From: Picocystis sp. L7
Lineage: Eukaryota; Chlorophyta; Picocystophyceae; Picocystales; Picocystaceae
Assembly (NCBI GenBank): GCA_020975725.1
Contig: QXJR01000010.1
Span: 658,371 to 722,370, forward strand
Length of the DNA stretch: 64,000 nucleotides
Direction of reading: 5' to 3'
Shown: piece after piece, positions 3,062 to 61,925 of the stretch
Layout of the letters: each line of letters starts with the position of its first letter
Position numbering within the stretch: position 1 is the stretch's first letter
Notes under the pieces: generated by a model
What the model was told of the DNA's origin: nothing
The model's input: only the letters and a program-made list of their open reading frames with translations
Databases searched by the model: none
Made by a program: the position numbers and the translations under genes

Positions 3062-4957
3062 ATGGCTTCCGAAGGATGGAACAGGTACCAAAGGGAACGT
3101 GCTGGACGCATGGAAGGATCAGCAGACGCACCGGCCGGACGGGAGGAACGAGACGTGGCGAAAGAGGTGATGGAAACCGTGAAGGAGATGCTGCCGGACG
3201 TGGAGCTGGGACCTGAAGACCACCTGGCCGAAGCTGGGCTGTCCGATTCCATCTCCCACATGCTGCTGCGAGACCAACTGAGGAAGAAGCTGGGATTGGA
3301 GCTGCCAGAGACTCTGGTGACCGAGTATCCGACGGTGAAAGCCATCACCGAAGCAGTGCTGGCCGCCACGCAGGAAAAAGTGCCACCTCTCCTCCTTCCC
3401 ATCCTCTACCAAGGAAACGAGAGAAGCAAGCTGGAAAAACCGGGTTCGACGCCCTTTTTTCCCTGGTCCGTCAAGATCGTATCCTTCTTCTCTTGGCTGG
3501 CGTTCGCCATCACCAGCCTGTTCCGATCCAAGAGAAGAAAGGCTCAGTACAAGAACGGATCCGGTGATACGGTGTACCACCTGAAACCAGAAGTGGAAAT
3601 TCCAAAGACCACATGCAAGCTGTCTTGGGACGACATGCTCCTCATGCGCATCGACCTCACCGCATCCTTGCACTTGCCCTACAAGGCCGACGATGAACAG
3701 ATCATGGAGGGCTTGCAAAAGGCCGTTGCGACATACCCATCCTTCACGGGACACTTCGAACCATTGGGAAGCGGAGCCTGCCTCGTCTTTGGTGGAGAAC
3801 ATGCGTACGTCGAAGTGACGGTTGGTAGAAACACAGAGCTGAAAGGCACGAGTCCTAATCTACCGTCTGCGGTGGATGCGAAAAAGACTCCTGCGAACCT
3901 TTACATAAGGTCGATGGCCTTCCGGCTGTTCTCTCGAGCCTACTCGAGACTCTTCCACAAGCCAGCCTTCCGGGCTTGCATCCTTCACAAGAAAGCCAAG
4001 GCTTCCTCGAAGGATGTAGAGTCCGGCAGAGGGGAGCAGGAGCAGACTGTGCTCCAAATCCTTTGGAGTCACGGACTGGCCGACGGAAATACTATCAACA
4101 AGTTCTTGTCATGCTGGGCGTCTTGCTGTCGAGGAGAAGTGAACTACAGCACCAGCCAGGGCCCCTTCAAGTCTCTGACGAGCGGACAGCGTGCAGCATT
4201 GGCCGATGATTTGCTGCGTCCAGGCTACCCCACAATGCGACACCAGGTTCTGCAGCTCAACGACTTTCACTTCAGAAGGCTGCACATCCCCAACAAGAAA
4301 CTGCAAGAGCTCAAAGGCATCTGCGGTGGGAACTGCTCTGATGCAGATGCTGTCTCTGCCCTACTTTGGGCTGCAATGATCGATGTCAGCGCCAAACCCT
4401 CGGACCCCAAGTCTAGTGAGATTGTGCGAGTTAGTTTCATGGACGATCTTAGAAACTATGTACCAGAGCTGCAGTCCTTCTGTGGCAATTTGCTCTGTTT
4501 TAGATCCCCCATCTCGCTGGATGGATCTGAATTGAGAGATGCCTTGCGAAGCAGTGGAATGAATCGATGCCACCAAAGCCAGCCTGTCTTGCGCTATCTA
4601 GCAAGAGTCATAAGGGAAGGCAGGGCAAGAAAGATCTACTCTCTGGAGGAGATAGAGAGGACATCCGTTGTTCCTGGTTGCCACCTGTGTGAGATGCAGT
4701 ATAAACTTACTGACGAGCGAAAGCAGTCTTGTCTGGCTGTCAACGATGCCATTCCGGGTACAAGAAACATCAATATGAAGTTCAGAGCGGAGGGTCCTCC
4801 TGCTCTTGTCGATGAAGCATCCATCCAATGGTTCCCTGACATCCCAATTTTCAGCTTTGACGCCTTGAAAGCTCTTTCAGATTGCCCGCTTTGGCAAGTC
4901 CACCTCTACGGGGCTCCTGACGGCGGGGTGCACTTCCAGTTGATGACTGCACCCTGA
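3062..4957 (+). CDS. Acyl carrier domain fused to a BAHD-type acyltransferase
   Basis: The predicted protein has 631 residues. Residues about 25-95 resemble an acyl/peptidyl carrier domain: the phosphopantetheine site reads GLSDSI with Ser63, followed by a helix and EYPTVKAI, typical of PKS/NRPS-like carrier domains. Residues about 131-153 form one hydrophobic segment, probably a membrane anchor, followed by basic residues. The rest (about 185-631) resembles the plant/fungal BAHD transferase family: the catalytic HxxxD motif is HGLAD (His337, Asp341) followed by G. The usual DFGWG near the C-terminus is not recognisable; GAPDGG lies in about that place. BAHD enzymes move an acyl group from acyl-CoA to an alcohol or amine. 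The attached carrier domain suggests the acyl group may instead be presented as a thioester on the same chain; that is inference. The frame is open back to 2678, but that upstream part is low-complexity and GC-rich, so the start was placed at 3062 (next ATG 3110). Confidence 0.72.
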   Translation: MASEGWNRYQRERAGRMEGSADAPAGREERDVAKEVMETVKEMLPDVELGPEDHLAEAGLSDSISHMLLRDQLRKKLGLELPETLVTEYPTVKAITEAVLAATQEKVPPLLLPILYQGNERSKLEKPGSTPFFPWSVKIVSFFSWLAFAITSLFRSKRRKAQYKNGSGDTVYHLKPEVEIPKTTCKLSWDDMLLMRIDLTASLHLPYKADDEQIMEGLQKAVATYPSFTGHFEPLGSGACLVFGGEHAYVEVTVGRNTELKGTSPNLPSAVDAKKTPANLYIRSMAFRLFSRAYSRLFHKPAFRACILHKKAKASSKDVESGRGEQEQTVLQILWSHGLADGNTINKFLSCWASCCRGEVNYSTSQGPFKSLTSGQRAALADDLLRPGYPTMRHQVLQLNDFHFRRLHIPNKKLQELKGICGGNCSDADAVSALLWAAMIDVSAKPSDPKSSEIVRVSFMDDLRNYVPELQSFCGNLLCFRSPISLDGSELRDALRSSGMNRCHQSQPVLRYLARVIREGRARKIYSLEEIERTSVVPGCHLCEMQYKLTDERKQSCLAVNDAIPGTRNINMKFRAEGPPALVDEASIQWFPDIPIFSFDALKALSDCPLWQVHLYGAPDGGVHFQLMTAP

Positions 4958-7670: not shown

Positions 7671-7947
7671 CCCATCCATCCAAGCAAGAGGTTGTGCTTC
7701 CACCCATTCCAAGCAAGCAGGAGGTTGTGCTTCCACCCCTTCCATCCATCCAAGCAAGAGGTTGTGCTTCCACCCATTCCATCCATCCAAGCAAGAGGTT
7801 GTGCTTCCACCCATTCCAAGCAAGCAAGAGGTTGTGCTTCCACCCATTCCATCCATCCAAGCAAGAGGTTGTGCTTCCACCCATTCCATCCATCCAAGCA
7901 AGAGGTTGTGCTTCCACCCATTCCATCCATCCAAGCAAGAGGTTGTG
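7671..7947 (+). repeat. 39-nt tandem minisatellite, about 7 units
   Basis: Units of 39 nt are built from ccattccatccatccaagc and agaggttgtgcttccaccc. Two or more units are shortened by loss of the inner catccatc. Because 39 is a multiple of three and the unit lacks stops, several frames on both strands stay open through the array and produce long artefactual peptides. Confidence 0.9.
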
Positions 7948-19565: not shown

Positions 19566-21829
19566 CTAGAGGGGACTCCTGCATATGTGCAGTGTAGCGC
19601 AATCACGGCCCGTGTATGGCCCACACAGGTAGGCAACGATGCCTTCGCTTGGCTTGGGACATGCCTGGCATGCGGCCGAGGGTTTCCTACCGCACATGAC
19701 GCAATGACGCTGTGTCACCTTCCTCGCCCGCGTGTCTTCGCCACTCGTCCTCATCACTTCCTCCCGTGCCACCAGACGGTGTGCACTCCCTCCACCCAAA
19801 TCACCCATCGCAGCGATCAACGGACGTAGACGGAGAGCTTGCTGCCTCTCCGTCTCCAACTCTGCCATTATCCACGGATTCTCTAGCAACTCCTTTGCGA
19901 GGAGCATCCTACAGTGCTTCTGTCGCACCTGCTCTGTTCTCTTCGCACGCATGAGCAAGAAAGTGTTCACCTCCGCCAACCCAATCAGCTCACTCAACTC
20001 GCGAATTCGAATGTCGTGCGTTTTCCACACGTCGTGGAACGCAACGCTACCTGTTCGCAGCCGGTTGTGCTAGTCCACGATGTTGTACTTGGATCTGTAC
20101 ATCTGCGTTGTCTCATCTACTGGGATTTGCTTTGCCAGCAGATGAGTGGTGTCCGTTGGATGCTTGATCATGTACTTCATGGTGCCTGCTGGCTGTGTGG
20201 TGAAGCAGGAAGACACCAAGCAGAGTGGTACACCAGCAGGCCCACGATGGGCAGTTGCCTTGATCAAGGTGCGGGTCCTGCGCACAGAGACTTCTCCTGG
20301 AATGCAAACAGTCAGTCCAGGTTGGTTGGGCTCACTCGAAAGGAAACGTTGAAGTGCAGCCTTGGGGTAACCCCTGTGTGCTGTTTTCACATTCAACACG
20401 GAGTACACACCGCGCTCTAGTAGCGCATAGCATGTCTTGAGTATCCCAAACCAGCTATCACCAAGGCAGACACGCCCACTGCCAAGGAACGGCTTCATGA
20501 GCCCGAGGGTGGTTGCTATGGTTGTCCCATATTCTGCATAAAATTCTTTCTCCTTCATCAAGCCTGCATTCTCCACTGGTTCCATGCGAGAACAGACACC
20601 AGTCAGCCCATCACACACAGTTTTGAGCTCCCTGCCCAGCGGGTCAGGTTTCCTGCGCAGAAACATCTTGGAGGGCATGCACTTGCCCATCCATTTCAAC
20701 ATGTATTCGTCCACAACCACCAGCCAGCTTGGAGTGTAATGCCGGGATGCATGTGCATTCCATGCATCCCAGAACCTACGCAGTTCCCAATGAGGATCAT
20801 CCTGCAGTGTATGCAAGGTGCCTGTGGGTCCCTTGCAAGGTCCAGCTTGCTCAGGCCTGTCCTCTCTCGCTCCTCGCTCCGCTGTGTATTTTGGCACACT
20901 GACTGCCAAGTATTCCAAGATGCGGTCAAAGTCCCTCCTGCAGAGAAACTTGTTCAGGTCGAACTGGACCGCCAATGGGACCTTCTCCACATCAATCACC
21001 TGCCAGAATGCCTTCGTGCTATGCCCAGGGTGCAACAACATGTACACGAAGCACCTAGACACCCTCAACAACATACCAGGTGAACACTCTCTGTCGTAAC
21101 ACAAGAAAGTGTCACCCGGCTTGTTGTACTTGCTTCGACCGCGCTTGGTTATCTCAGCACTCCAATCAGGCAACAGTTCGTACGGGAAGAAGCGCAGGAA
21201 ATGCTACAATGCTTTTGTCTCACGAAAAGGCTGTGGTATGTAAGACGAAGGCGAACCATAGCCTTGTTGCCTGTCCATGACGCCATTGGCTGCACGTGAG
21301 TCGACCATCACGTGCGCCTCTTCCTCCTCCCACACCACTCCAAACCATTCCCAGCCACTTCGTTGACGTCCACGCCATCTCCAAGCGGGTCCAAGTCTTC
21401 CTCGTGGAGCGTTGCGCACTCCTGGACGTCGAGGAAGGCCTCCTCCGGTGGTACCTCCGTGGGTGGAGGTACCAAGTCGTCGTCCCCACCGGCATCCATT
21501 CCGGTGGGTCTTTCTTCCTCCATGGCCGCGTGTTGCGGTTCTTCATCCGGTGGTTGCTCCACAAACGTGTAAAGGTTCACCGTTTCCTCGGTGACCGGCC
21601 ATTCCTCCGTCGAGGTGCCCGTCGTGTGGCAGCAAACGATGGCCTCCTGCTCTCCTATTCGTAAACGTATGAGGCGGAGCACCACGCCGTCATACCACGT
21701 GTCGCTCCACGCCTCCCCATGCGCTTCACGAGCCCATTCTTCGCCAAACTCGGCTGCTGGAATCCGAACGCGCGCTCCAATCAGCGGATTGGGCGGCCGT
21801 TGCCGCCGTTGCTTCCGCCGATGCGCCAT
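19566..21829 (-). pseudogene. piggyBac-like transposase (DDE_Tnp_1_7 type), broken
   Basis: Reading from 21829 (ATG) on the minus strand: an N-terminal part with YDGVVLRLIRLRIGEQEA and an acidic linker, then a change of frame near 21310, then the catalytic core. The first catalytic Asp is in VVVDEYMLKWMGK and the second in VCLGDSWFGILKTCYALLERG, both matching piggyBac family signatures. The third conserved region reads NIVD then a TAG stop (20070-20072) then HNRLRTG, where the family normally has VDQHNRLR. A second in-frame TAG lies at 21204-21206, between ETKAL and HFLRFFPYELL. The C-terminus (about 19590-19720) has the Cys-rich zinc ribbon typical of these proteins (CVMCGRK, ACQAC, CGPYTGRDC). 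One frame change and two stops argue for a dead copy. Confidence 0.75.
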
Positions 21830-23104: not shown

Positions 23105-25249
23105 TTAGCGCATTGATACCAATTGCTTGGAAATATCTTGAAAGGTAGGACGCTTCTGGGGGTCTTGCGCCCAACATGAAACCATTAATCCTACATAGTT
23201 AGGGTGTTTTTGCTTCATACTGCTGGATATCTCTGGTCGTTTACCATCTTCAACAATACGTGATACTACACGCGGATCCACACCTTCAAATGGAATTGAC
23301 TGTGTTGCAACGGCATACATCAACATCCCAAAAGCATACACATCAATGCTTGGCTCTCGGCTACCCTGTAGATCCGTGAACATCTCAGGGGCTGCATATA
23401 GAAGCGACAAACCGCTTGTAGGAGCCATTGTATGAGTATACGTTTGTACTCTTGAAACACCAAAGTCCACCACAACTGCAATGCCTTTGTCGTTGAACAT
23501 CACATTTTCAGGTTTAAGGTCCCCGTGCACAACCCTCTCAAAAGGTCTTGAGTGCAAATAGGCCATTCCCCTTGCGATATCTGATACTGCAGCAATTTTC
23601 CATTCCCAAGGCAAAGGGTTGCTGTCTTCCAGCGCGGTTGCCAAGGATCCACGTCCATAGAACTCCATTACCAGCGCAAAATGGTCCTTTTCATCGACAA
23701 GGCCGTAGAAAGTTGCAATATTAGGATGACGTAAGAGACTCATGATGTAGGCTTCTTGATGGACCATGCGCTTCATGCGTTCTGTAAGTAGCGGCTGGGC
23801 AAGTTCTTTCACAGCTACCTGAAAAGCGCTCCAATGTCCCCTGTATACTTTCCCATATCCTCCCTGACCTACTACATTCGAAAGCTCTATCTCATCCCAT
23901 GAGATTTTCAAGTCCTGTATTTTTTCCTTGATTGTCCTACGGCGTTCTTGCCTCATGAGCTCTTTGATATTCAAACCATGTGTTTGAAACTGCTTCTCCA
24001 AATCCAAGCGCTGTGTCTTACTCAACGATTCCCATGACTCACCATCCTCTGTCAGGCTTTCAGCAAGATCTTTGAGGTCCTGCTTCGTGTCCTCAACATC
24101 TTCGTCCTCCGCACGAGAGGGAAGGAATGCTTGCTTTGCAAGTTGTGTTTGCACCACTGCACCATCCGTAAAAGTCTGCATTTGCATTTGCAGTGCTAGA
24201 TTCAAGTCATTGAAGCAGTCAGAGAGATCATGAGATAGTTCTTGAAACTTGGCTCCGTACCTTTCCGATTTGGACATGCTGAATACCAATGAAACAATAG
24301 ACTTTTCCCTCGAAGACCACTTTTCGATGGTGGCCGCAGCTGCATTCAGCACATCTTGCAGTTGCTGCAGCACAGGTTCGAGTGACTTTGCCCGTACGTC
24401 TTGCTGGTCCCCATTATTAGAAACCAAATGCTCTTGAAGCGCATTCAAAAGAGGGAGCATTGCACCAATCCGAAGAGATAATCGTTCACACCTAGCATGA
24501 TTAGCGACAACCCGTCGTGCCATGTTTATCACTGCTGTAGCTAGACTGACACAAATATCCAACGCTGCAAATCCAGTTTGTGCAAGCCTGAACTCTGTAA
24601 CACTCTTGTTTGTCCACTGTTTGTTGGATGAACTGCTCATACTTGAGATTTGAGGAGAACGCAATTGCCCTGATGATACCACTTGTGGTTCGCTGAAGCT
24701 TTCAACTTTTGGTGCGTATTGCCGGCTATCTCTTGAGCCATAAGCGCCAGATCTTGAAGTATATGAGCTGGTCTCAGCACGTGAGTGAAAAAAGATGCAT
24801 CGTACAGCCAATAGACACGTTGCAAAAGCTAAAAAACCAAAAACTATCCACATGTCTCGCTTGTAGTCACTAGAACTATAAAAGTTACCTGACTCAACAA
24901 TCGCTGCATATACACCCACACCAATCGAGGTAGCATAGAATAGGCCAAAGACTACCCACTCAAAACGATGTTTCCAGTGTGTACACCCGTAGTGCACCTT
25001 CCAATCATATCTGCCACTAGCTTTGGAAAAATACAAAAAGTAAAAAAGAACTAGTACAGCAAGAAAGAGTGAAATTGCAAATCCTGCCCAAAAACCTGCT
25101 TCTTTTGAACCATCATCATAATCATAGTAGCTGTAGGAGTCAATACTTAGAACTGCGGAGGTAAGAAAAACAACAGCTAGGATGGTTGATACCACAAAAG
25201 TCAACCATGCGACTCTGTTAGGTTTTGTCATACATCCAAAGTAAACCAT
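23105..25249 (-). CDS. Membrane-anchored protein kinase (TKL-like)
   Basis: The product has 714 residues from the ATG at 25249. The N-terminal 170 residues contain four hydrophobic helices (around WLTFVVSTILAVVFL, GFAISLFLAVLVLFYFLYF, VFGLFYATSIGVGVYAAIV and IVFGFLAFATCLLAVRCIF). A middle region with Ser-rich and helical segments follows. The C-terminal 270 residues are a complete protein kinase domain: GQGGYGKVY Gly loop, VAVKEL with the Lys, the catalytic loop VVHGDLKPENVMF (HGD in place of HRD), VVDFGVS and LLYAAPEMF. The layout fits tyrosine-kinase-like Ser/Thr kinases of plants and protists. The cytosolic kinase would be tethered to a membrane by the four-helix module. Codon use is clearly more AT-rich than in the genes at 29-57 kb, matching its AT-rich surroundings. 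Confidence 0.88.
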   Translation of the reverse strand: MVYFGCMTKPNRVAWLTFVVSTILAVVFLTSAVLSIDSYSYYDYDDGSKEAGFWAGFAISLFLAVLVLFYFLYFSKASGRYDWKVHYGCTHWKHRFEWVVFGLFYATSIGVGVYAAIVESGNFYSSSDYKRDMWIVFGFLAFATCLLAVRCIFFHSRAETSSYTSRSGAYGSRDSRQYAPKVESFSEPQVVSSGQLRSPQISSMSSSSNKQWTNKSVTEFRLAQTGFAALDICVSLATAVINMARRVVANHARCERLSLRIGAMLPLLNALQEHLVSNNGDQQDVRAKSLEPVLQQLQDVLNAAAATIEKWSSREKSIVSLVFSMSKSERYGAKFQELSHDLSDCFNDLNLALQMQMQTFTDGAVVQTQLAKQAFLPSRAEDEDVEDTKQDLKDLAESLTEDGESWESLSKTQRLDLEKQFQTHGLNIKELMRQERRRTIKEKIQDLKISWDEIELSNVVGQGGYGKVYRGHWSAFQVAVKELAQPLLTERMKRMVHQEAYIMSLLRHPNIATFYGLVDEKDHFALVMEFYGRGSLATALEDSNPLPWEWKIAAVSDIARGMAYLHSRPFERVVHGDLKPENVMFNDKGIAVVVDFGVSRVQTYTHTMAPTSGLSLLYAAPEMFTDLQGSREPSIDVYAFGMLMYAVATQSIPFEGVDPRVVSRIVEDGKRPEISSSMKQKHPNYVGLMVSCWAQDPQKRPTFQDISKQLVSMR

Positions 25250-35464: not shown

Positions 35465-37435
35465 ATGCCCTCCACGCCCCAGGCCATGGCGTCGGATGCC
35501 GTGCTGTGGGGGGTGCTGGAGAGGACCCGGGTGAGCCCACACGTGGAACGGCGGAGAAGGAACGTCCTGGAACGGTTGCAAAGGGCGGTGGAACGATGGA
35601 TCCGAAACGAAGGACAGCTCGCCCACAAGGTCGTCCGTTCCGAAGATCAGGGATCCCAACACGTGCAAGAAGGAACGTGCCAGGAAGGGAAACAGGGAGA
35701 CGGGAGGGAAAGGGAGGCGCCGTCGGACGTCCAAGTGGTGGCCTTTGGATCCACCACCATGGGACTCAGTAATCCACACAGCGACATGGACGTCTCCGTG
35801 GTGATGCCCCACTGCTGTCCAGAAGACAGAGGAAAAGTGCTCCAACGGATCGACAAGGTCATGAGATCCATGTGCAGGGGCACGAGGACAAACGTGAGGC
35901 TCATCAAGAACGCCAGGGTCCCGGTGCTGCGCTACCTGGATGCGGTGCACAAGGTGCAGTGCGACGTCACCGTCAACGCGGGAGGGTCCGCATACAAGTC
36001 CGAGGCGATCGGACTGCTCCTTGGCCACGACGAGAGAGCGGTGGGGCTGGCGAAGCTGGTCAAGATGTGGGCCAAATCCCAAGGAATCAACGATCCTTCC
36101 GGAGGGACCTTCAACTCCTACTCCCTCGTCCTGCTGGTCATCGTCTTCCTGCAGTGCCAACGGCCCGCCGTGCTACCTCCCCTGAAGGAGGTACTCTTCA
36201 GCCCGAACGTTCCTGCCCGCTTGTCGAAGAAAGACAGGAAGAGAACGGAACCTTGTGGGAACCCGGTCACCTGGTCCATCCTCCTGCAAAACCTCCGAGT
36301 CCACGGAACGGACTGGAAGTCACGGAGCGATGCTCGGAAGAATCAGAAGCCGCTGAGCGAGCTCTTGGAAGATTTCTACGTCTTTCAAGACGAAAACCTC
36401 GCGCAATGTCGTCCTCACATGAGGGCCTGTGCTTACCATGGACGGGTCACGGGGACGTTGCTGAGCCGTGGAGGACCGTTCCTCGATGTGGTGGATCCCT
36501 TTGACGAGGAGGAGAACTGCGCCAGGACTGTGCGGAGGCTCGGATGCCTCGGGAGGATCAAGAAGTCGTTCAGACTCGCCGCGTCGAAGGTTAGGGAAGG
36601 CCGTGGAAATGCTCACCTGTGGCTGTGCCCGGGAGACGAATGGTTCGCTGCAGAATGCCTGCACGGCATGGCCGAGATGAGGCTGGATGAGGTGATGAAC
36701 GAAGGACCCGACGGCAATCCCGCGCAGGATTGGGAAATCGACCATGCGATGCGGCAAAAGGCTGTCCCTCAACCACCCCACCAACCAGCCAAGCCCAAGC
36801 AATCCAAGTCAGGGAACAAACCAGGCCAGGAACCCGGAGTGCGTTCCGCAGCAGAGAAGCCCAAGCAATCCAAGTCAGGGAACAAACCAGGCCAGGAACT
36901 TGGAGTGCGTTCCGCAGCAGAGAAGCCCAAGCGCAAGGACTCGCCGGTCAAGTCTGGGCCGACGATCCCTGCCCCACCCCATCCCAAAGAAGGCTCTGCA
37001 GTACAATCCGCTCCGAATTCAGAACTGTATCGATGTCCTTTTTGCCCGTTCTCTTGCGAGGCTACCGACTTGAAAGCAAAAAAGAGCCACAAGAAAGACG
37101 TGCAGCACGTGGCAAACCGGGTGCTCCAGTTGTACAGTGACTGTATAGTGCGTCGGGGAAAAAGCCTTGCCTGCAAAGGTTGCTCGAAAGCACAGTGCAG
37201 CATGAAATCCAAGGAGAATATCGTGGCGTTTGAAAAGCACGTGAGGCTGCTGCAGTCTTCAAAAGGGAAGACACTAAAGGGTTGGAAGAGAAAGTGTTCT
37301 GTCCCGCACATTGAAGAGGTGGAAGGATGCACGGCATACATTTGTATGAAATGTGCGGTAACGATAAACACGAGCAACGTTTGTGGCATTCTAGCACTGC
37401 TGGAACACGCAGGACCACACGAACAATTCAAATGA
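35465..37435 (+). CDS. Trf4/Cid1-type nucleotidyltransferase with C-terminal zinc-finger module
   Basis: The product has 656 residues from the ATG at 35465. The nucleotidyltransferase signature is VAFGSTTMGLSNPHSDMDV, giving metal-binding Asp107 and Asp109, with the third Asp167 in VQCDVTVNA. The central domain follows (LVKMWAKSQGIND, FNSYSLVLLVIVFLQ) and a PAP-associated block ends with VDPFDEEENCARTVRR. This layout is that of non-canonical poly(A) polymerases and terminal uridylyltransferases, which add A or U tails to RNA 3' ends; which base is added cannot be told. After a linker with two 22-residue tandem repeats comes a Cys-rich tail: CPFCPFSC, then CKGCSKAQC, then CMKC, a probable zinc-binding RNA or protein interaction module. 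A shorter paralogue follows at 38753. Confidence 0.85.
   Translation: MPSTPQAMASDAVLWGVLERTRVSPHVERRRRNVLERLQRAVERWIRNEGQLAHKVVRSEDQGSQHVQEGTCQEGKQGDGREREAPSDVQVVAFGSTTMGLSNPHSDMDVSVVMPHCCPEDRGKVLQRIDKVMRSMCRGTRTNVRLIKNARVPVLRYLDAVHKVQCDVTVNAGGSAYKSEAIGLLLGHDERAVGLAKLVKMWAKSQGINDPSGGTFNSYSLVLLVIVFLQCQRPAVLPPLKEVLFSPNVPARLSKKDRKRTEPCGNPVTWSILLQNLRVHGTDWKSRSDARKNQKPLSELLEDFYVFQDENLAQCRPHMRACAYHGRVTGTLLSRGGPFLDVVDPFDEEENCARTVRRLGCLGRIKKSFRLAASKVREGRGNAHLWLCPGDEWFAAECLHGMAEMRLDEVMNEGPDGNPAQDWEIDHAMRQKAVPQPPHQPAKPKQSKSGNKPGQEPGVRSAAEKPKQSKSGNKPGQELGVRSAAEKPKRKDSPVKSGPTIPAPPHPKEGSAVQSAPNSELYRCPFCPFSCEATDLKAKKSHKKDVQHVANRVLQLYSDCIVRRGKSLACKGCSKAQCSMKSKENIVAFEKHVRLLQSSKGKTLKGWKRKCSVPHIEEVEGCTAYICMKCAVTINTSNVCGILALLEHAGPHEQFK
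36791..36932 (+). repeat. 66-nt in-frame tandem repeat inside the nucleotidyltransferase
   Basis: Two 66-nt units (36791-36856, 36857-36922) and the first 10 nt of a third encode a 22-residue linker repeat beginning KPKQSKSGNKPGQE. The two full units differ at only a few bases, so the duplication is recent or kept by conversion. Confidence 0.9.
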
Positions 37436-38752
37436 ACATTGCAGCTTCCGTGGGTGTGCTTTCTATCCCGCAGAGGATGGTGGTGCGAGAGGACGTTGAA
37501 CCTGCACTTTGATGCCGCTTGGATGTTCCTTGGAACAAACTTGCGCATCAAAACCACCGGTGCATGATCCAGCGCCCTGTGGCTTCGTGTGCTTGACGTA
37601 TCTAGCCGCATCGTCTTACACAGTTGTTGTTGCTCGCTAGAATTGCCGATGTGCAATACTGACGCCTGGAACCTCCAGGTCACCGAGCTAGCTGCCGTGT
37701 CAGGACTTTGCCCTTCTTCAGCGTTTGGTGCAGCTGCAGAATGCTTGGCACAACGACTGGATGGGTTGTGAAATAGCGACCTGTGGACGAAGAAGGGGAG
37801 GGGGTCGCATGTCTTCCAAGCTCCACCTTGGCAGTTGCTTGGCGACGTTGTTTCCTGGTCATAGGTTGGCTGCAGGCAGGGACTTTTGCCCTCGGGGCAC
37901 TTATTCCTTTCATGCTCGATGCACATGATTGGTTTGCGGTGTGCCGGTCTTGCCAACTTGCTTGTACCGTACGTCGTTTCTCTTGTCCGTTCCTTCAGAA
38001 ACAGGAGATGGGCCGATTGACCTGAATGCACTTGAATCTGGATGCAGCGTGTGGCTTGGGTTGATCTTCCACAGCCTCCTGCGGCAAGGATTGCACTGTG
38101 CAGCAGCTGGTATCTTCTGAGCATTGCGCAGATTGGAACTTCACGGGATCCTTCCCGAAGCACCTTTTTTTAGATGTATTGGAGATGGCCAGTCCTTCGA
38201 CGCACCAAAGGCCATTCTTCTCGCTTTCAAGGACTTTTGTTTCCCAAAACGGCTCCGGAGAAAGGTCCTGCGCCCCGTCCACCCACGCAGGAGGTCCGTT
38301 TCCTCCATCCATCCATCCATCCCATATCATGCTCGTCCCGTCCCTTTCTTGGTGTGCTGTGTTGGGTGGACCCAGGCGTGTCCATGTATCTGGATCCAAC
38401 CTGTGCAGCCGTGGCCATCCCATGGCTGTCTCCTTCCCTGTGGTTGTGTTCAGGGTTGGACCTCCACGCTCCATCTTCCTTCCAGGATCCACCACGGATT
38501 CTTCCATGCCTGGTGGATGGTGGTGCAGTGCTGTGAAAGTGCTCACATGGATACCTCCATCCAAGTGTTGGCCCCTTCATCCCCCGAGTGGTGATGTGGG
38601 AGAAGGATCGGGTCGGATCCACCCTTTCCATCGGGGAAGCGGATCCCTTCTGGGATGGAAATAGAAGGGAAGGACCAGGCCTTTCCATTCCCATGGGATC
38701 CCCTTCCTCTCGGGTTTCGACCGTCCCGACGTGTCGGAAGGGAACCGCGGCT
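37436..38752. other. Intergenic, no convincing gene
   Basis: Separates the two tandem nucleotidyltransferase genes. Several overlapping frames exist on both strands, none with a recognisable domain. Short ccatccatccatcc and ggatccacc repeats occur from 38.3 kb, near the start of the downstream gene. Confidence 0.45.
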
Positions 38753-40009
38753 ATGGCGTTCTCCCAGCCGAAACGCGCGAGCAGACGTCGCGACGGGAAG
38801 GAAAGGAACAAGGCACGAGCGCGTACGAACGTGGCCGTCCCGGACGGGAAGCTGTGGGAGGTGGCGATGGACGTGTCCGACACGGTGGACGTGCAACGGA
38901 GGAGGAAGAAGAGCCAGAAGACGGTCCAACAAGTGGTCCACACCTGGGCAGCCAGGTACAGTGCACTGGCCTTGCATACGGAGCTGGCCATCCGAGACAT
39001 GAGCTTGTACGAAGCGTCCGTCCAAGAAAGGATGGTGGAACGGCGCACCCGACGAAGGATCAAACGGACAAGCATCCCAACCCGCGTGGAACTGGCTGCC
39101 TTTGGTTCCACCTTGATGGGAGTGGCTGCACCAAGCAGTGACCTTGACCTGGTCATCCTGGCTCCGCGTTGCTTTGAAAAAGACAAGACCAAAGTGCTCT
39201 GGGCACTGAGGCGTCACATCGCAAAGACCGACATCGTGAAGACCACCAAGGTGCTCGTGGTACCTTCCAAAAAAGTGCCCTTCATGAGGTTCACTGACCA
39301 AAAGACGCAGATACGTTGCGACGTGGTCATCGGCACACGCGGCACTGTCTTCAAGTCCAGGGCGCTTCGGATGCTGCTCGGGTACGATCGAAGGGCCAAA
39401 GTGCTCGTGAAGCTCGTGAAACAATGGGCGAAAAACAAACGCATCGATTCACCCAAATCTGGTACCTTGAACTCGTACTCGTTGGTCCTGCTGGTTGTGG
39501 TCTACCTGCAAAGCGTGTATCCAAGGGTGCTCCCTGCCCTCGAAGAGGTGATGCTCGACGGAATCGAACGGGATTCGATTATCTTCTGGAGAGCGAGGTG
39601 TCACGCCGTTGGTCTGCCCGAAACGGCACAGGAGAACCTCTTGACATCCTTGCGGTCCAACTCGCAGCGGTGGAAAGCTCGAAAGAAGGCTTGCAAGAAT
39701 GAAGATTCCCTGGGAACGCTCTTCGAAGGCTTCTTCGGGTTTTGCATCAAGAGCATGGACGTAGAAGGCGGCACGCCTGCCTTTAACGCTTTTACGGGCA
39801 AGGCGCATGCGTGCAATCGCCATCAGAAGGCTGCTTTGGTGCAGATTACGGATCCCTTTGACGAGGGAGAGAACTGCGCGCGTGCAGTAAGACATCGGTT
39901 ACCCTTCGAACGAATGAAGGAGGCTTTCCTGGGCACGGCCGCAGATCTCGGCAGAATCCACACGCCAGGGAAACGGTGGGAATATCTTGCAAGCATTTCC
40001 AGCCCGTGA
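38753..40009 (+). CDS. Trf4/Cid1-type nucleotidyltransferase, shorter tandem paralogue
   Basis: The product has 418 residues from the ATG at 38753; the frame is open upstream to ATG 38594. The signature AAFGSTLMGVAAPSSDLDL gives Asp130 and Asp132, and Asp190 lies in IRCDVVIGT. Central-domain motifs LVKQWAKNKRID and LNSYSLVLLVVVYLQ and the block TDPFDEGENCARAVRH line up with the upstream gene. It lacks the repeat linker and the zinc-finger tail of that gene and ends soon after the PAP-associated block. The N-terminus is basic (KRASRRRDGKERNKARAR), possibly a nuclear or organelle targeting signal. The two copies probably arose by tandem duplication and then diverged. Confidence 0.82.
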   Translation: MAFSQPKRASRRRDGKERNKARARTNVAVPDGKLWEVAMDVSDTVDVQRRRKKSQKTVQQVVHTWAARYSALALHTELAIRDMSLYEASVQERMVERRTRRRIKRTSIPTRVELAAFGSTLMGVAAPSSDLDLVILAPRCFEKDKTKVLWALRRHIAKTDIVKTTKVLVVPSKKVPFMRFTDQKTQIRCDVVIGTRGTVFKSRALRMLLGYDRRAKVLVKLVKQWAKNKRIDSPKSGTLNSYSLVLLVVVYLQSVYPRVLPALEEVMLDGIERDSIIFWRARCHAVGLPETAQENLLTSLRSNSQRWKARKKACKNEDSLGTLFEGFFGFCIKSMDVEGGTPAFNAFTGKAHACNRHQKAALVQITDPFDEGENCARAVRHRLPFERMKEAFLGTAADLGRIHTPGKRWEYLASISSP

Positions 40010-44394: not shown

Positions 44395-44915
44395 GAGAAG
44401 AGAAGGGATCGAATGGATAGAAAGAGAAAGGATAGAAGGGATGGGATGGATAGAAAGAGAAGAGAAGGGATCGAATGGATAGAAAGAGAAAGGATAGATG
44501 GAGAAGGGATAGAAGGAGAAGAAGGGATAGATGGAGAAGGGATAGAAGGAGAAGAAAGGATAGATGGAGAAGCAATAGAAAGAGAAGAAAGGATAGATGG
44601 AGAAGGGATAGAAGGAGAAGAAAGGATAGATGGAGAAGCAATAGAAGGAGAAGAAAGGATAGATGGAGAAGGGATAGAAGGAGAAGAAAGGATAGATGGA
44701 GAAGCAATAGAAGGAGAAGAAAGGATAGATGGAGAAGGGATAGAAGGAGAAGAAAGGATAGATGGAGAAGGGATAGAAGGAGAAGAAAGGATAGATGGAG
44801 AAGGGATAGAAGGAGAAGAAAGGATAGATGGAGAAGCAATAGAAGGAGAAGAAAGGATAGAAGAAGGGATCGAATGAGAAGAAAGGATAGAAGAAGGGAT
44901 CGAATGAGAAAGCAG
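44395..44915 (+). repeat. Purine-only 33-nt tandem array
   Basis: About a dozen units of 33 nt (aggatagatggagaagggat plus agaaggagaagaa), with a variant in which ggg is replaced by gca, flanked by related 24-36-nt variants. The plus strand is nearly all A and G. It ends 115 bp before the phosphatase start codon at 45030. Open frames that run through it on both strands are artefacts of the repeat. Confidence 0.9.
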
Positions 44916-45643: not shown

Positions 45644-46519
45644 TTATTGCAGGTCCTCCAGTTCTTGCTTCAGTTGCAACAGCACTGCGACTTCCTTCTG
45701 GACCTCTTCGTCCTGGTTTGTCCGTCCCGATTCTTTCATGCCTCTTATTTTGTTTCCTTGTTTTTCTACCTGGATCTGGAGATCTTCGATTCGGCGTGGA
45801 GGAGGCGCTTCCTCGGAGGTCTCCACCATCTTTCCCCTTAGCTTATCGGGGGTGAAGAGATCTTCAACGTCGTCGCAGTCCACGAATTCCCACTCCGAAA
45901 AGACGGCAGCTTGTCCGACGCTTCCCCCTTCCCCGGTACGTATCGTCCAAAGCGTGGCATCCTTGATTTGGAAGCGTTTCCCTTGGCTCGAAATCCGCAC
46001 GCCAGAATAGTTCTCTACGAATCCTTTCTCCAAAGCCTCTTGCAAGGCGCTGGCCCTGTCTTTTTGCACGTCTTCGGATTCTTCTGCTGATTTCCTCGAT
46101 GGAACGCCCACGAGATCGTCCCATTCTACTTCCCAGAGCTTCAGTGCGGCTTCGTTGGCGTAGGTGAACACTGGATCTTCGCCACCGTCGTGGGCCAGGC
46201 ACACGAAGGGAGCCTCGTACAACGCTCGAGGCGCGTCTGTGATCTCCATTTCTCCTTCCATCAGCGTCCTTCCCGTTTCCTTCTTGTAGCTTTCCACCAG
46301 CTGCAGGGTGGTCATGATGACGTCGCTGGACAGATAGCGAAGTTTGTCTGCTGCAGTTGTTCCGACTTCTTTCTGCTTGGCTTTCTTCCCGCTCTTGGCA
46401 CCCGATCCTTTGGTTCCTTTTCCTTTCTTCTTCGCCGCACACACGTCCATGGATGACCTGCGCCTTCCTCCCTTCCGACCAGCGCCGTACGTCCCGTGCG
46501 CGACGGTCGACACCGCCAT
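45644..46519 (-). CDS. MEKHLA-domain protein, probably plastid-targeted
   Basis: The product has 291 residues from ATG 46519. The N-terminal 60 residues are basic, Ser/Gly/Lys-rich and free of acidic residues up to about position 24, as in a transit peptide. The MEKHLA (PAS-like) domain follows: APFVCLAHDGGEDPVFTYAN, AALKLWEVEWDDLVGVPSRK, GVRISSQGKRFQIKDATLW and GQAAVF. This domain occurs in cyanobacteria and plastid-bearing eukaryotes, and in plants at the C-terminus of HD-ZIP III proteins. A ligand- or redox-sensing role is only inference. The C-terminal 70 residues (LQIQVEKQGNKIRG, LLQLKQELEDLQ) are a coiled coil. It is head-to-head with the SOUL gene. Confidence 0.82.
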   Translation of the reverse strand: MAVSTVAHGTYGAGRKGGRRRSSMDVCAAKKKGKGTKGSGAKSGKKAKQKEVGTTAADKLRYLSSDVIMTTLQLVESYKKETGRTLMEGEMEITDAPRALYEAPFVCLAHDGGEDPVFTYANEAALKLWEVEWDDLVGVPSRKSAEESEDVQKDRASALQEALEKGFVENYSGVRISSQGKRFQIKDATLWTIRTGEGGSVGQAAVFSEWEFVDCDDVEDLFTPDKLRGKMVETSEEAPPPRRIEDLQIQVEKQGNKIRGMKESGRTNQDEEVQKEVAVLLQLKQELEDLQ

Positions 46520-58408: not shown

Positions 58409-59062
58409 ATGGGGTGGAATCGAAAGAGAAAAGACCAACTACAGCACCGACTGGATTTCAAGGCAAAACGCTTCGTGATGGGGAAGAAGCGCACAAAAAT
58501 GCCAGCACCAGGCCTCATGGAGGAAGCGGCCATCCAGGCCACCAAAGCGGCGTACAAGGTGCTGAGTGGGAATCTCTCCGCCACGTCCAAGGTTATGAAG
58601 CGGAGTTGGGTGACAGTGAAATCTTGGGTGAAGGATCGTAAGCCCAAAGCTCCTTCCTCTTCAAAACGTCGTTCCCTCTCTTATGCCCGTGGTCATGGCA
58701 AGTGGTTGTGCAACTTGCTCAAGTCTCGTGCACTTGAAGGCCAGGCCATGGGGACAAGGGATGTCATGAACGAGTGGGAAGCACGGTACGGACGGAGAGT
58801 ACCCTTGAGGACCTTGCAACGGCTGTTGAAGGATTTGGGGGTGAAGACCAAGGTCCAAAAAAAGGTGATGAAGTTGCAGGCCTCACACAAGGCCAATAGA
58901 GTGAAGTTTGCGGAACGGCACTTGGGGGATGATTTTGGGCGGGTTCTTTTCACGGATGCCCACCAAATTTACCTGGGAACCACCAAGCACAAAGGCTCCA
59001 AACGAACCCTGGTCCCTCCTGGTACCACACCCCTCGTGGAATTCAACAAAAGCCTCCCATGA
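58409..59062 (+). pseudogene. Truncated Tc1/mariner-type transposase
   Basis: A frame of 217 residues. The first 160 residues are basic and helical, with two probable helix-turn-helix units (ATSKVMKRSWVTVKSWVKD and RTLQRLLKDLGVKTKVQKK). The catalytic domain then begins with VLFTDAHQIYL, where the Asp corresponds to the first D of the DDE/D triad (family: VLFTDE). The frame stops about 35 residues later, so the second and third acidic residues are missing, and no continuation is visible downstream. Loss of the 3' half makes it a dead fragment. A TTTAGGG-like string follows closely. Confidence 0.65.
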
Positions 59063-60443: not shown

Positions 60444-61925
60444 ATGGATTGGCTTGCGTTTTGGAGAAGACCTCCCTCGATCGACGTGGAAAAGGCCTTT
60501 CGAACCTGGGTCGCAGCGAGGGAACGAAGGGAGCAGCATGAGGAAGAGGAGAGACGAGAGGCGAAACGAGCAAGGAACGAACGTATCACGCGCATGACGG
60601 CGAGATTGCTTGCTTGTGCTCAGGTTGCAAACGCAGCCTCACATGTGCTCGTCTTGCCCAATGCGGTGCGAATGGAGGGGGAGCGGGAATGTTGGAAAAG
60701 GGATAGGAGACAGAACAACTTCAGCGAGTTGTTCGATGACAGGACGACCGACGAAACGTTTAAACGCCTCATGCGTATGACACGGGCCAGTTTCGCAAAG
60801 CTGTTGGGCTACGTGGAGTCCGACTTGATGCCTTCACCTTATGCAAGAGGCGATTTCATATCCCCCTGCAGAACTTTGTGCCTCACCATACTGAGGTTGG
60901 CGCATGGCACTAGTTTTTTGGAGTTGAGCCAGACATTCGCGATTGGAATCTCTACTGCCCACAAATGCTATGCACGTGGGATCCAAGCCATTGTGAAGTT
61001 GGAGAGGCACTTTATTTGCCCTCCATTAACTGTTGATGATGTCAAGGCTTGCATTGATTGCTTTGCTCAAAGGGGATTCCCCAATGCATGCCTTGCTGTG
61101 GATGGCTGCCACGTACCGGTGGAACTCGCAGATCAATATGAAGGACTGCAAGATTTTATCTGCTACAAGGGGTTTTACTCCTTAAATAGTATGGCGTATG
61201 TGGATGGCAAAGGACAGTTCCGTGCAGTATTGTGTGGATGGGCTGGGGCATCTGCAGATGGGGGCGTGTTGAAGGAGATGGAGTTTACAACTTTGCTGCA
61301 GGTACGGCGTGCAAGTGGGTGCCTAGCTTGGAGTTCATGACGACTGACTGTGTGATCGTGCTTGATTGCTCACTGTCTTCACCATTGTTGATAGAATGGG
61401 CTACTCACTGAGATGACCGAGCTATATAGGAAAGTGGAGTACAAGGATATTGATGGTGAGGTTGCCACAGTCTGGGTCCCTCCTCTGGTTCTCGCAGATT
61501 CAGCTTTTGGCTTGGAAACTTGGCAGATGACCCCATATAAACGTGACAATGGATCAGGTACGGGGTCAGAGAGGCGGTTCAACTGGCAGCACAGTTCTGC
61601 ACGGGTATGTGTGGAGCACTCTTTTGGGAGGTTGAAGGGCAGGTCCCGACTTCTGCTGCAGAAGCACAAGACATCTTGGAAAATGGGTGCACAGTCGATC
61701 ATGGCAGCAATGGTATTGCATAACTTCCTTGGTATGGAGAGGGACAGCTTCATAGTTGAATGGGCTGCAGGGGTAGATGAATTGGAAGGGGTCAGTCAAG
61801 CGCACTGTGGAGGAGAGGATGACGTGGAGGACATAGGTACGGAGTCTGCGGTTGTCATTAGGCAGGGACTGACCATGTTTGTTTCTCAGCAGGGACGAAG
61901 AGCTCGAAGAGAGAGGAATAGATGA
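60444..61925 (+). CDS. PIF/Harbinger transposase (DDE_4), two exons
   Basis: Proposed CDS: 60444-61301 joined to 61395-61925, 462 residues. Exon 1 ends CTGCAG|GTACGG, the 93-nt intron ends GTTGATAG, and the phase is 0; splicing joins TTLLQ to NGLLTEMTELYRKV, where the family also continues. Catalytic residues of the Harbinger DDE domain are visible: Asp in CLAVDGCHVPVE, Asp in LVLADSAFGL, Glu in CVEHSFGRLKGR. The N-terminal part (about 1-150) is helical with RLMRMTRASFAKLLGYV. A helix-turn-helix-like LRLAHGTSFLELSQTF follows. No stop or frameshift interrupts the model, so the enzyme may be functional. The ATG at 60444 is the first in frame after a stretch of open sequence, so an earlier start is possible. 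Confidence 0.8.

Follow-up and report, generated by a model that had tools for sequence, protein, structure and literature searches.

What does a single protein chain do that joins a carrier domain to a BAHD-like acyltransferase half? This question is raised by a gene, P0001, in a 64,000-nucleotide stretch of DNA (the window) that forms the final 64 kb of contig C8 in the Picocystis sp. L7 genome (20.5 Mb, 30 contigs). The original prediction, made from the letters of the window, described a carrier fused to a BAHD acyltransferase through a membrane segment, knew of no described enzyme with this order, and proposed either self-loading of an acyl thioester or recruitment to a polyketide synthase (PKS), NRPS or lipid pathway at a membrane. 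The gene and its parts are listed below in window coordinates.

3062 to 4957, plus strand: P0001 gene, encoding a 631-aa carrier-BAHD-like protein; on homology a paralogue of the tail of a giant PKS (C8:629219-657643)
3140 to 3385, plus strand: carrier (PP-binding) domain, residues 27-108, recognised by PF00550 and by a profile of the PKS's own carriers
3248 to 3250, plus strand: codon of Ser63, the phosphopantetheine site expected from the sequence motif GLSDSI
3467 to 3523, plus strand: hydrophobic segment, residues 136-154, with a basic stretch behind it; may be a membrane anchor (Kyte-Doolittle 1.64)
3614 to 4954, plus strand: BAHD-like half, residues 185-631; PF02458 scores below the cut-off here and above it in the PKS paralogue
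4070 to 4084, plus strand: HGLAD, an HXXXD motif by sequence, residues 337-341
4775 to 4795, plus strand: MKFRAEG, residues 572-578, placed by eye at the DFGWG position of canonical BAHD proteins

P0001 encodes a carrier domain and a BAHD-like half in one frame

Translation of positions 3062-4957 on the plus strand yields 631 aa without a stop. The stop-to-stop open run around this frame comprises 764 codons, compared with a maximum of 542 in 40 random windows drawn from an order-2 Markov model of the window. With codon statistics modelled on the neighbouring PKS the frame was the best of six in two of five segments, and homology is the better argument for its status as a gene. The start at 3062 is putative; ahead of it the frame continues without a stop and contains a further in-frame ATG, at 2687. 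Scans of the window with Rfam (gathering threshold) and for tRNAs gave no matches.

That a carrier and an HGLAD motif share one 631-aa frame was confirmed. Absence of a PF00550 hit had been named beforehand as grounds for giving up the fusion; what was found is a match to residues 41-99 with an E-value of 9.7e-8 and 32.6 bits, above the curated cut-off of 20.8. Five carriers of the neighbouring synthase were made into a second profile, which matched residues 27-108 at an i-E of 1.9e-13, and on these profile matches the carrier is classified as PKS-type. When P0001 was compared with the PDB by phmmer, matches were sub-threshold only, to 12 carrier or PKS chains (best E 0.024). Ser63 lies within G59-L-S-D-S-I64, where D62-S63 provides the Asp followed by Ser at the start of helix 2; the AlphaFold model of P0001 has a helix at 63-77, at Ser63, with a pLDDT there of only 52-67. 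Before Ser63 the motif is one residue longer than in all 32 other aligned carriers, many of which are near-identical copies of each other. Two PPTase loci are present in the genome.

For the BAHD-like half, DFGWG served here as the second motif of canonical BAHD enzymes, beside HXXXD. The predicted BAHD identity stood in part. As in canonical members of PF02458, HXXXD is present and followed by G (HGLAD, residues 337-341; HGLADG, 337-342), and the central part of the profile matches weakly (residues 331-478, 17.8 bits, E 0.0015; 17.2 bits for the BAHD half alone). Unlike canonical members, P0001 has a carrier and a hydrophobic segment in front, stays below the curated cut-off of 22.7 bits and lacks DFGWG, with MKFRAEG at the corresponding place by eye. 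Because neither a score above the cut-off nor DFGWG was found, the protein is termed BAHD-like. The BAHD domain of the PKS tail scored above the cut-off (24.6 bits, 26.8 when trimmed). A joint profile of P0001 and the PKS tail retrieved four PDB chains at E <= 1, every one of them a BAHD-family protein (CsCER2, 0.023; EPS1, 0.22 and 0.23; vinorine synthase, 0.85); none is significant alone, and it is the agreement of all four that argues for kinship. A phmmer search of the PDB with the PKS tail alone gave two chance-like matches, neither to a BAHD protein, and AlphaFold models built from an alignment of two rows were too poor to test the fold (mean pLDDT 35.9 for P0001 and 33.4 for the PKS tail). 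A PF02458 family search of the genome found no matches and missed the two known BAHD-like places too; it therefore gives no evidence that other copies are absent. In sum of motif and profile, the half probably works like a BAHD enzyme.

The predicted membrane segment was borne out as a hydrophobic stretch at residues 136-154, but its best 19-residue Kyte-Doolittle mean of 1.64 is borderline. The low-confidence AlphaFold model has a helix at 135-151. Nothing in the PKS tail corresponds to residues 146-158, which take in half of the segment together with the basic residues that follow, so that a possible membrane anchor would belong to free P0001 only. A true single membrane pass would place carrier and BAHD half on opposite sides, a separation that a surface-lying helix would avoid. 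The suggested self-loading found no support, as the chain carries no loading domain and a membrane pass would part the carrier from the BAHD half.

P0001 adjoins a giant trans-AT-like PKS

Outside the window, at C8:629219-657643 on the plus strand (equivalent to -29151 to -727), lies a frame of 9,474 aa from its first ATG that runs uninterrupted to its own stop (9,489 open codons). P0001 follows downstream on the same strand after 3,788 bases. Pfam searches on ten pieces covering the whole frame identified an AMP-binding ligase with its C-terminal domain, carriers, KS, DH, ER and KR domains and a terminal PF02458 domain. Combined with self-comparison and motif scans, these pieces yield a layout that starts with the ligase and two carriers, continues with KS-(no domain label)-carrier, KS-(no domain label)-ER-KR-carrier and three KS-DH-ER-KR-carrier modules, and ends with KS-(DH-like)-(carrier-like)-BAHD. 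All six KS have the Cys, HGTGT and the second His, and none of the seven Ser-bearing carriers lies after the last KS. In none of the ten pieces was an acyltransferase family matched at E <= 0.01, and the whole genome has two AT loci, in frames of 708 and 377 aa. With several KS/carrier modules and the AT elsewhere, the upstream gene shows the features of a trans-AT type I PKS, while P0001 is itself no PKS and contains no KS. By domain content, the upstream gene is classified as a multimodular trans-AT-like PKS of green-algal type.

The last KS is 99.8% identical in DNA to the preceding KS, and the DH-ER-KR-carrier parts of modules 3-5 (residues 3933-8141) share 3244 to 3254 of 3255 bases. Judged by this identity, the tandem modules reflect a very recent duplication or gene conversion, and the last KS may be intact simply because it was copied recently.

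Two further genes lie ahead of the synthase: a close relative of the Chlorella fatty acid photodecarboxylase about 2.2 kb before it (C8:625218-627011, plus strand; best PDB match 5ncc, E 1.1e-195) and, ahead of that gene, a P-type cation ATPase (C8:619536-622727).

Two more pairs of PKS genes were found on C15, at 476641-515631 and 517157-533377 on the plus strand and at 541242-573329 and 573356-592390 on the minus strand, with frames of 12,996, 5,406, 10,695 and 6,344 aa. Facing each other, the pairs form inverted copies with about 99% identity along extended tracts, and one KS match of the minus-strand pair is divided between two frames. The C15 synthase ends examined have ligase and thioesterase domains, with a thioesterase in both of the two ends.

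P0001 is a paralogue of the terminal unit of the PKS

Searching the genome with P0001 gave 34 matches, including itself. One other match covered residues 69-626 (26% identity, E 5.3e-34) and fell at the end of the giant PKS (C8:655958-657592); the remaining matches concern the carrier region, most of them in giant frames on C15 and C8. Two carrier-region matches, C15:423961-424245 (minus strand) and C15:432702-432986 (plus strand), lie in short frames that are each interrupted by three TAG stops, and are possible PKS relics near the C15 cluster.

P0001 and the PKS tail align from P0001 residue 3 to 627 with 28% identity. In shuffle tests the real score exceeded every shuffled one for residues 1-30 (38, maximum 34, 0 of 500 reaching it), for the carrier segment (44, maximum 37, 0 of 500) and for the BAHD part (288, maximum 61, 0 of 200). 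We regard descent of P0001 and the terminal carrier-BAHD unit of the PKS from a common ancestor as well supported by these alignments. The predicted link to a PKS has gained strong support, P0001 being the paralogue of the end of the very synthase that precedes it. The carrier-BAHD order is real, but it is not unique here, since the PKS ends in a degenerate version of the same order. An isolated self-loading fusion was set aside as less likely because this PKS paralogue exists, and the original interpretation as a whole is partly supported.

When the PKS end (KS, DH-like, carrier-like and BAHD) was used as query, none of 30 scored matches fell into the stretch that separates the PKS stop from the P0001 frame, so that this search gave no KS or DH copy ahead of P0001. 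Relatives were also sought in a prokaryotic contig collection (86 pattern matches) and among viral contigs (50 pattern matches), and in neither was any match confirmed.

The arrangement of the two genes allows for splicing from a point behind the last KS of the PKS into the P0001 frame, which would give two forms of the synthase, one ending in the dead tail and the other in the live one. The common strand, the homologous endings and the open in-frame leader before the P0001 ATG agree with such alternative tails. Nevertheless, we hold this to be extremely improbable, given the gap of 3,788 bases, a PKS frame that is uninterrupted to its own stop, and homology that starts at P0001 residue 3, as for a gene with its own start.

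Residues lost from the PKS end are kept in P0001

The DH motif of the PKS reads DHVVLDRMIFPG in modules 3-5 compared with DSFVNGRCVLPC at the end, where the DH-like stretch lacks the His. The terminal carrier-like stretch has no Ser, and the terminal BAHD domain has NRGIAD at the HXXXD position, with Asn for His and the Asp kept. Downstream of the last KS the profile of PKS carriers found no match, even at a reporting threshold of 1000 with all filters off, which leaves the last KS with no functional-looking carrier in its own chain. P0001 keeps both what the tail has lost, namely the carrier Ser63 and an intact HXXXD. As far as motifs can tell, the PKS tail looks catalytically dead and P0001 looks intact.

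One explanation for this pattern is decay, in which both carrier-BAHD ends are being lost, the free copy at a slower pace, and neither still serves a function. The additional residue in the carrier motif, the missing DFGWG and codon statistics that favour the P0001 frame in only two of five segments point in this direction. Against it, the copy is old (28% identity) and yet stop-free, and Ser63, HXXXD and an ACP-like profile score have all been kept, which makes decay very unlikely.

Alternatively, the free copy may have left the service of the PKS and become an independent enzyme, for example one that forms membrane-lipid esters or is loaded from another carrier or CoA, self-loading included. 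Such a history would agree with the deep divergence (28% identity) and with a hydrophobic segment that is missing in the PKS tail. It is hard to reconcile with the PKS-type carrier, with the position of the gene beside the PKS, and with a PKS that is short of exactly the residues that P0001 has; we consider it unlikely.

A third explanation comes from plants, in which BAHD proteins of the CER2-LIKE group alter the length of the chains that condensing enzymes make, apparently without acyl transfer (PMC5489795). Like the PKS tail, they are BAHD-like partners of a condensing enzyme, and their His is dispensable and their Asp important, which fits NXXXD: H166N is tolerated in CER2, and OsCER2 is impaired by H172D, D176A and D176H (PMC5489795). 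They differ in being free-standing, in having no carrier and in partnering a KCS of the fatty acid elongase (PMC5489795); P0001 also differs in keeping the His. By analogy, the fused and free BAHD halves would both shape the KS pocket or the chain length, with no acyl transfer, and P0001 would be a second, carrier-bearing version. The fused BAHD domain indeed sits in the module of a KS with His replaced by Asn and the Asp kept, and the best of the four sub-threshold PDB profile matches is CsCER2. However, that match (E 0.023) is not significant on its own, and P0001 keeps a His and a carrier Ser that a purely structural partner would not need. For the two halves together we judge such a role unlikely; for the fused tail it is a serious option, which can be combined with an active free copy.

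Proposed role of P0001 in chain termination

The reading that we favour, with about even confidence, is that P0001 is a free-standing copy of the PKS terminal unit which acts in trans as a chain-termination protein for the upstream trans-AT-like PKS. We infer this mechanism from the homology, the adjacency, the motif status of the two ends and the lack of an AT match in the PKS. In contrast to the two C15 synthase ends examined, the giant PKS has no thioesterase match in any of its ten Pfam pieces and thus needs another exit for its chain. Its ligase-activated acid start and three fully reducing modules lead us to expect a long, largely saturated chain.

In the first step a PPTase would load phosphopantetheine onto Ser63 of P0001. 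The last KS, intact by motif, could then extend the chain or pass it onto the P0001 carrier; in an alternative hand-over, the BAHD half of P0001 would collect the chain from the module 5 carrier. The BAHD half, its His337 serving as general base, would hand the acyl chain over to the presumed acceptor, an alcohol or amine, and an ester or amide would be released. The dead-looking PKS tail might still serve for docking or for shaping the substrate, and P0001 might be held by its hydrophobic helix at a membrane near a lipid-like acceptor. A lipid- or wall-type product would be consistent with release onto an alcohol or amine at a membrane.

More specifically, the last station of the synthase may have been outsourced, the fused end being a dead docking scaffold and the free, membrane-tethered twin carrying the live carrier and the releasing acyltransferase. 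This version is put forward tentatively. If true, one system would combine a split terminal module with a BAHD-based PKS release that takes place in trans at a membrane. Counted against termination in trans are the one-residue insertion in the carrier motif, the PF02458 score below the cut-off, the absence of DFGWG and the separation that a membrane pass would impose, and also the possible origin of the intact last KS in recent copying and the agreement of the Asn-for-His change in the PKS tail with a CER2-like, non-catalytic role.

Other features of the window and the genome

Several observations in the window stand apart from the PKS locus. The protein encoded at 23105-25249 (minus strand) combines membrane-like stretches at its N-terminus with an MLKL_N-type domain (E 2.7e-12) and, further, a protein kinase domain (E 9.8e-49); in layout this algal protein is MLKL-like. 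Three types of transposase piece (DDE_Tnp_1_7, Tc3-type HTH and DDE_Tnp_4) lie at 20070-21074 (minus), 58409-59062 (plus) and 60444-61340 (plus). Neighbouring genes with MTPAP-like nucleotidyltransferase domains at 35465-37435 and 38594-40009, both on the plus strand, are probably a local duplication. At 45644-46519 (minus) a MEKHLA (PAS-like) domain is joined to a WHEP-TRS domain, an odd pair. Tandem arrays at 7672-7947 (unit of about 37 bases) and 44473-44910 (about 33 bases) overlap open frames that are probably spurious. In the genome, 18 LHC-family matches were obtained, the best of which matches chlorophyll a/b proteins of plants and green algae in the PDB; these matches suggest a genome of the green lineage.

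Discussion

A system similar to P0001 in outline is PapA5 of mycobacteria, a free-standing HXXXD acyltransferase that takes chains from a PKS carrier. P0001 is likewise free-standing and has HXXXD; it differs in its carrier domain and hydrophobic segment, as PapA5 is not known to have a carrier domain or a membrane segment.

Green-algal multimodular trans-AT type I PKSs have been described (Shelest et al., 2015; PMC4661987). The giant PKS resembles them in its very large size, N-terminal ligase, lack of an integrated AT and near-identical duplicated modules, and some of them also end with an unusual terminal KS followed by a release-type domain (PMC4661987). In some of these the terminal KS is a KS0 before a hydrolase-like domain (PMC4661987), whereas the last KS of the giant PKS keeps its motifs. 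The giant PKS further differs in the degenerate DH-like, carrier-like and BAHD parts after the last KS and in the free copy of the last two; the main text of PMC4661987 contains neither the word BAHD nor any word beginning with 'transferase'.

Fungal PKSs with a C-terminal carnitine acyltransferase release their chain onto an alcohol (PMC10901484). In luteodienoside synthase LtbA, an acyltransferase at the PKS end likewise offloads the chain onto an alcohol; LtbA differs in that this domain is a carnitine O-acyltransferase and not a BAHD protein, is fused and active, belongs to an iterative PKS and has no free carrier-bearing copy (PMC10901484). A BAHD domain in a PKS, or a BAHD-PKS fusion, was not found in the open-access literature searched, outside which most subscription papers lie. 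PKS release by an acyltransferase domain is a known kind of mechanism; a BAHD-like domain in this role, together with a detached copy whose active residues are intact, would be a new form of it.

Almost all algal giant PKSs have an unknown product (PMC4661987), and how their chains are released is mostly open. A BAHD tail with a free copy offers a concrete, testable release mechanism for such synthases, and the finding brings an acyltransferase family of plant type together with modular polyketide synthesis. The pairing of a dead-looking fused with a live-looking free version also asks what BAHD proteins do beside ketosynthases, which is the question that CER2 poses in plant wax synthesis.
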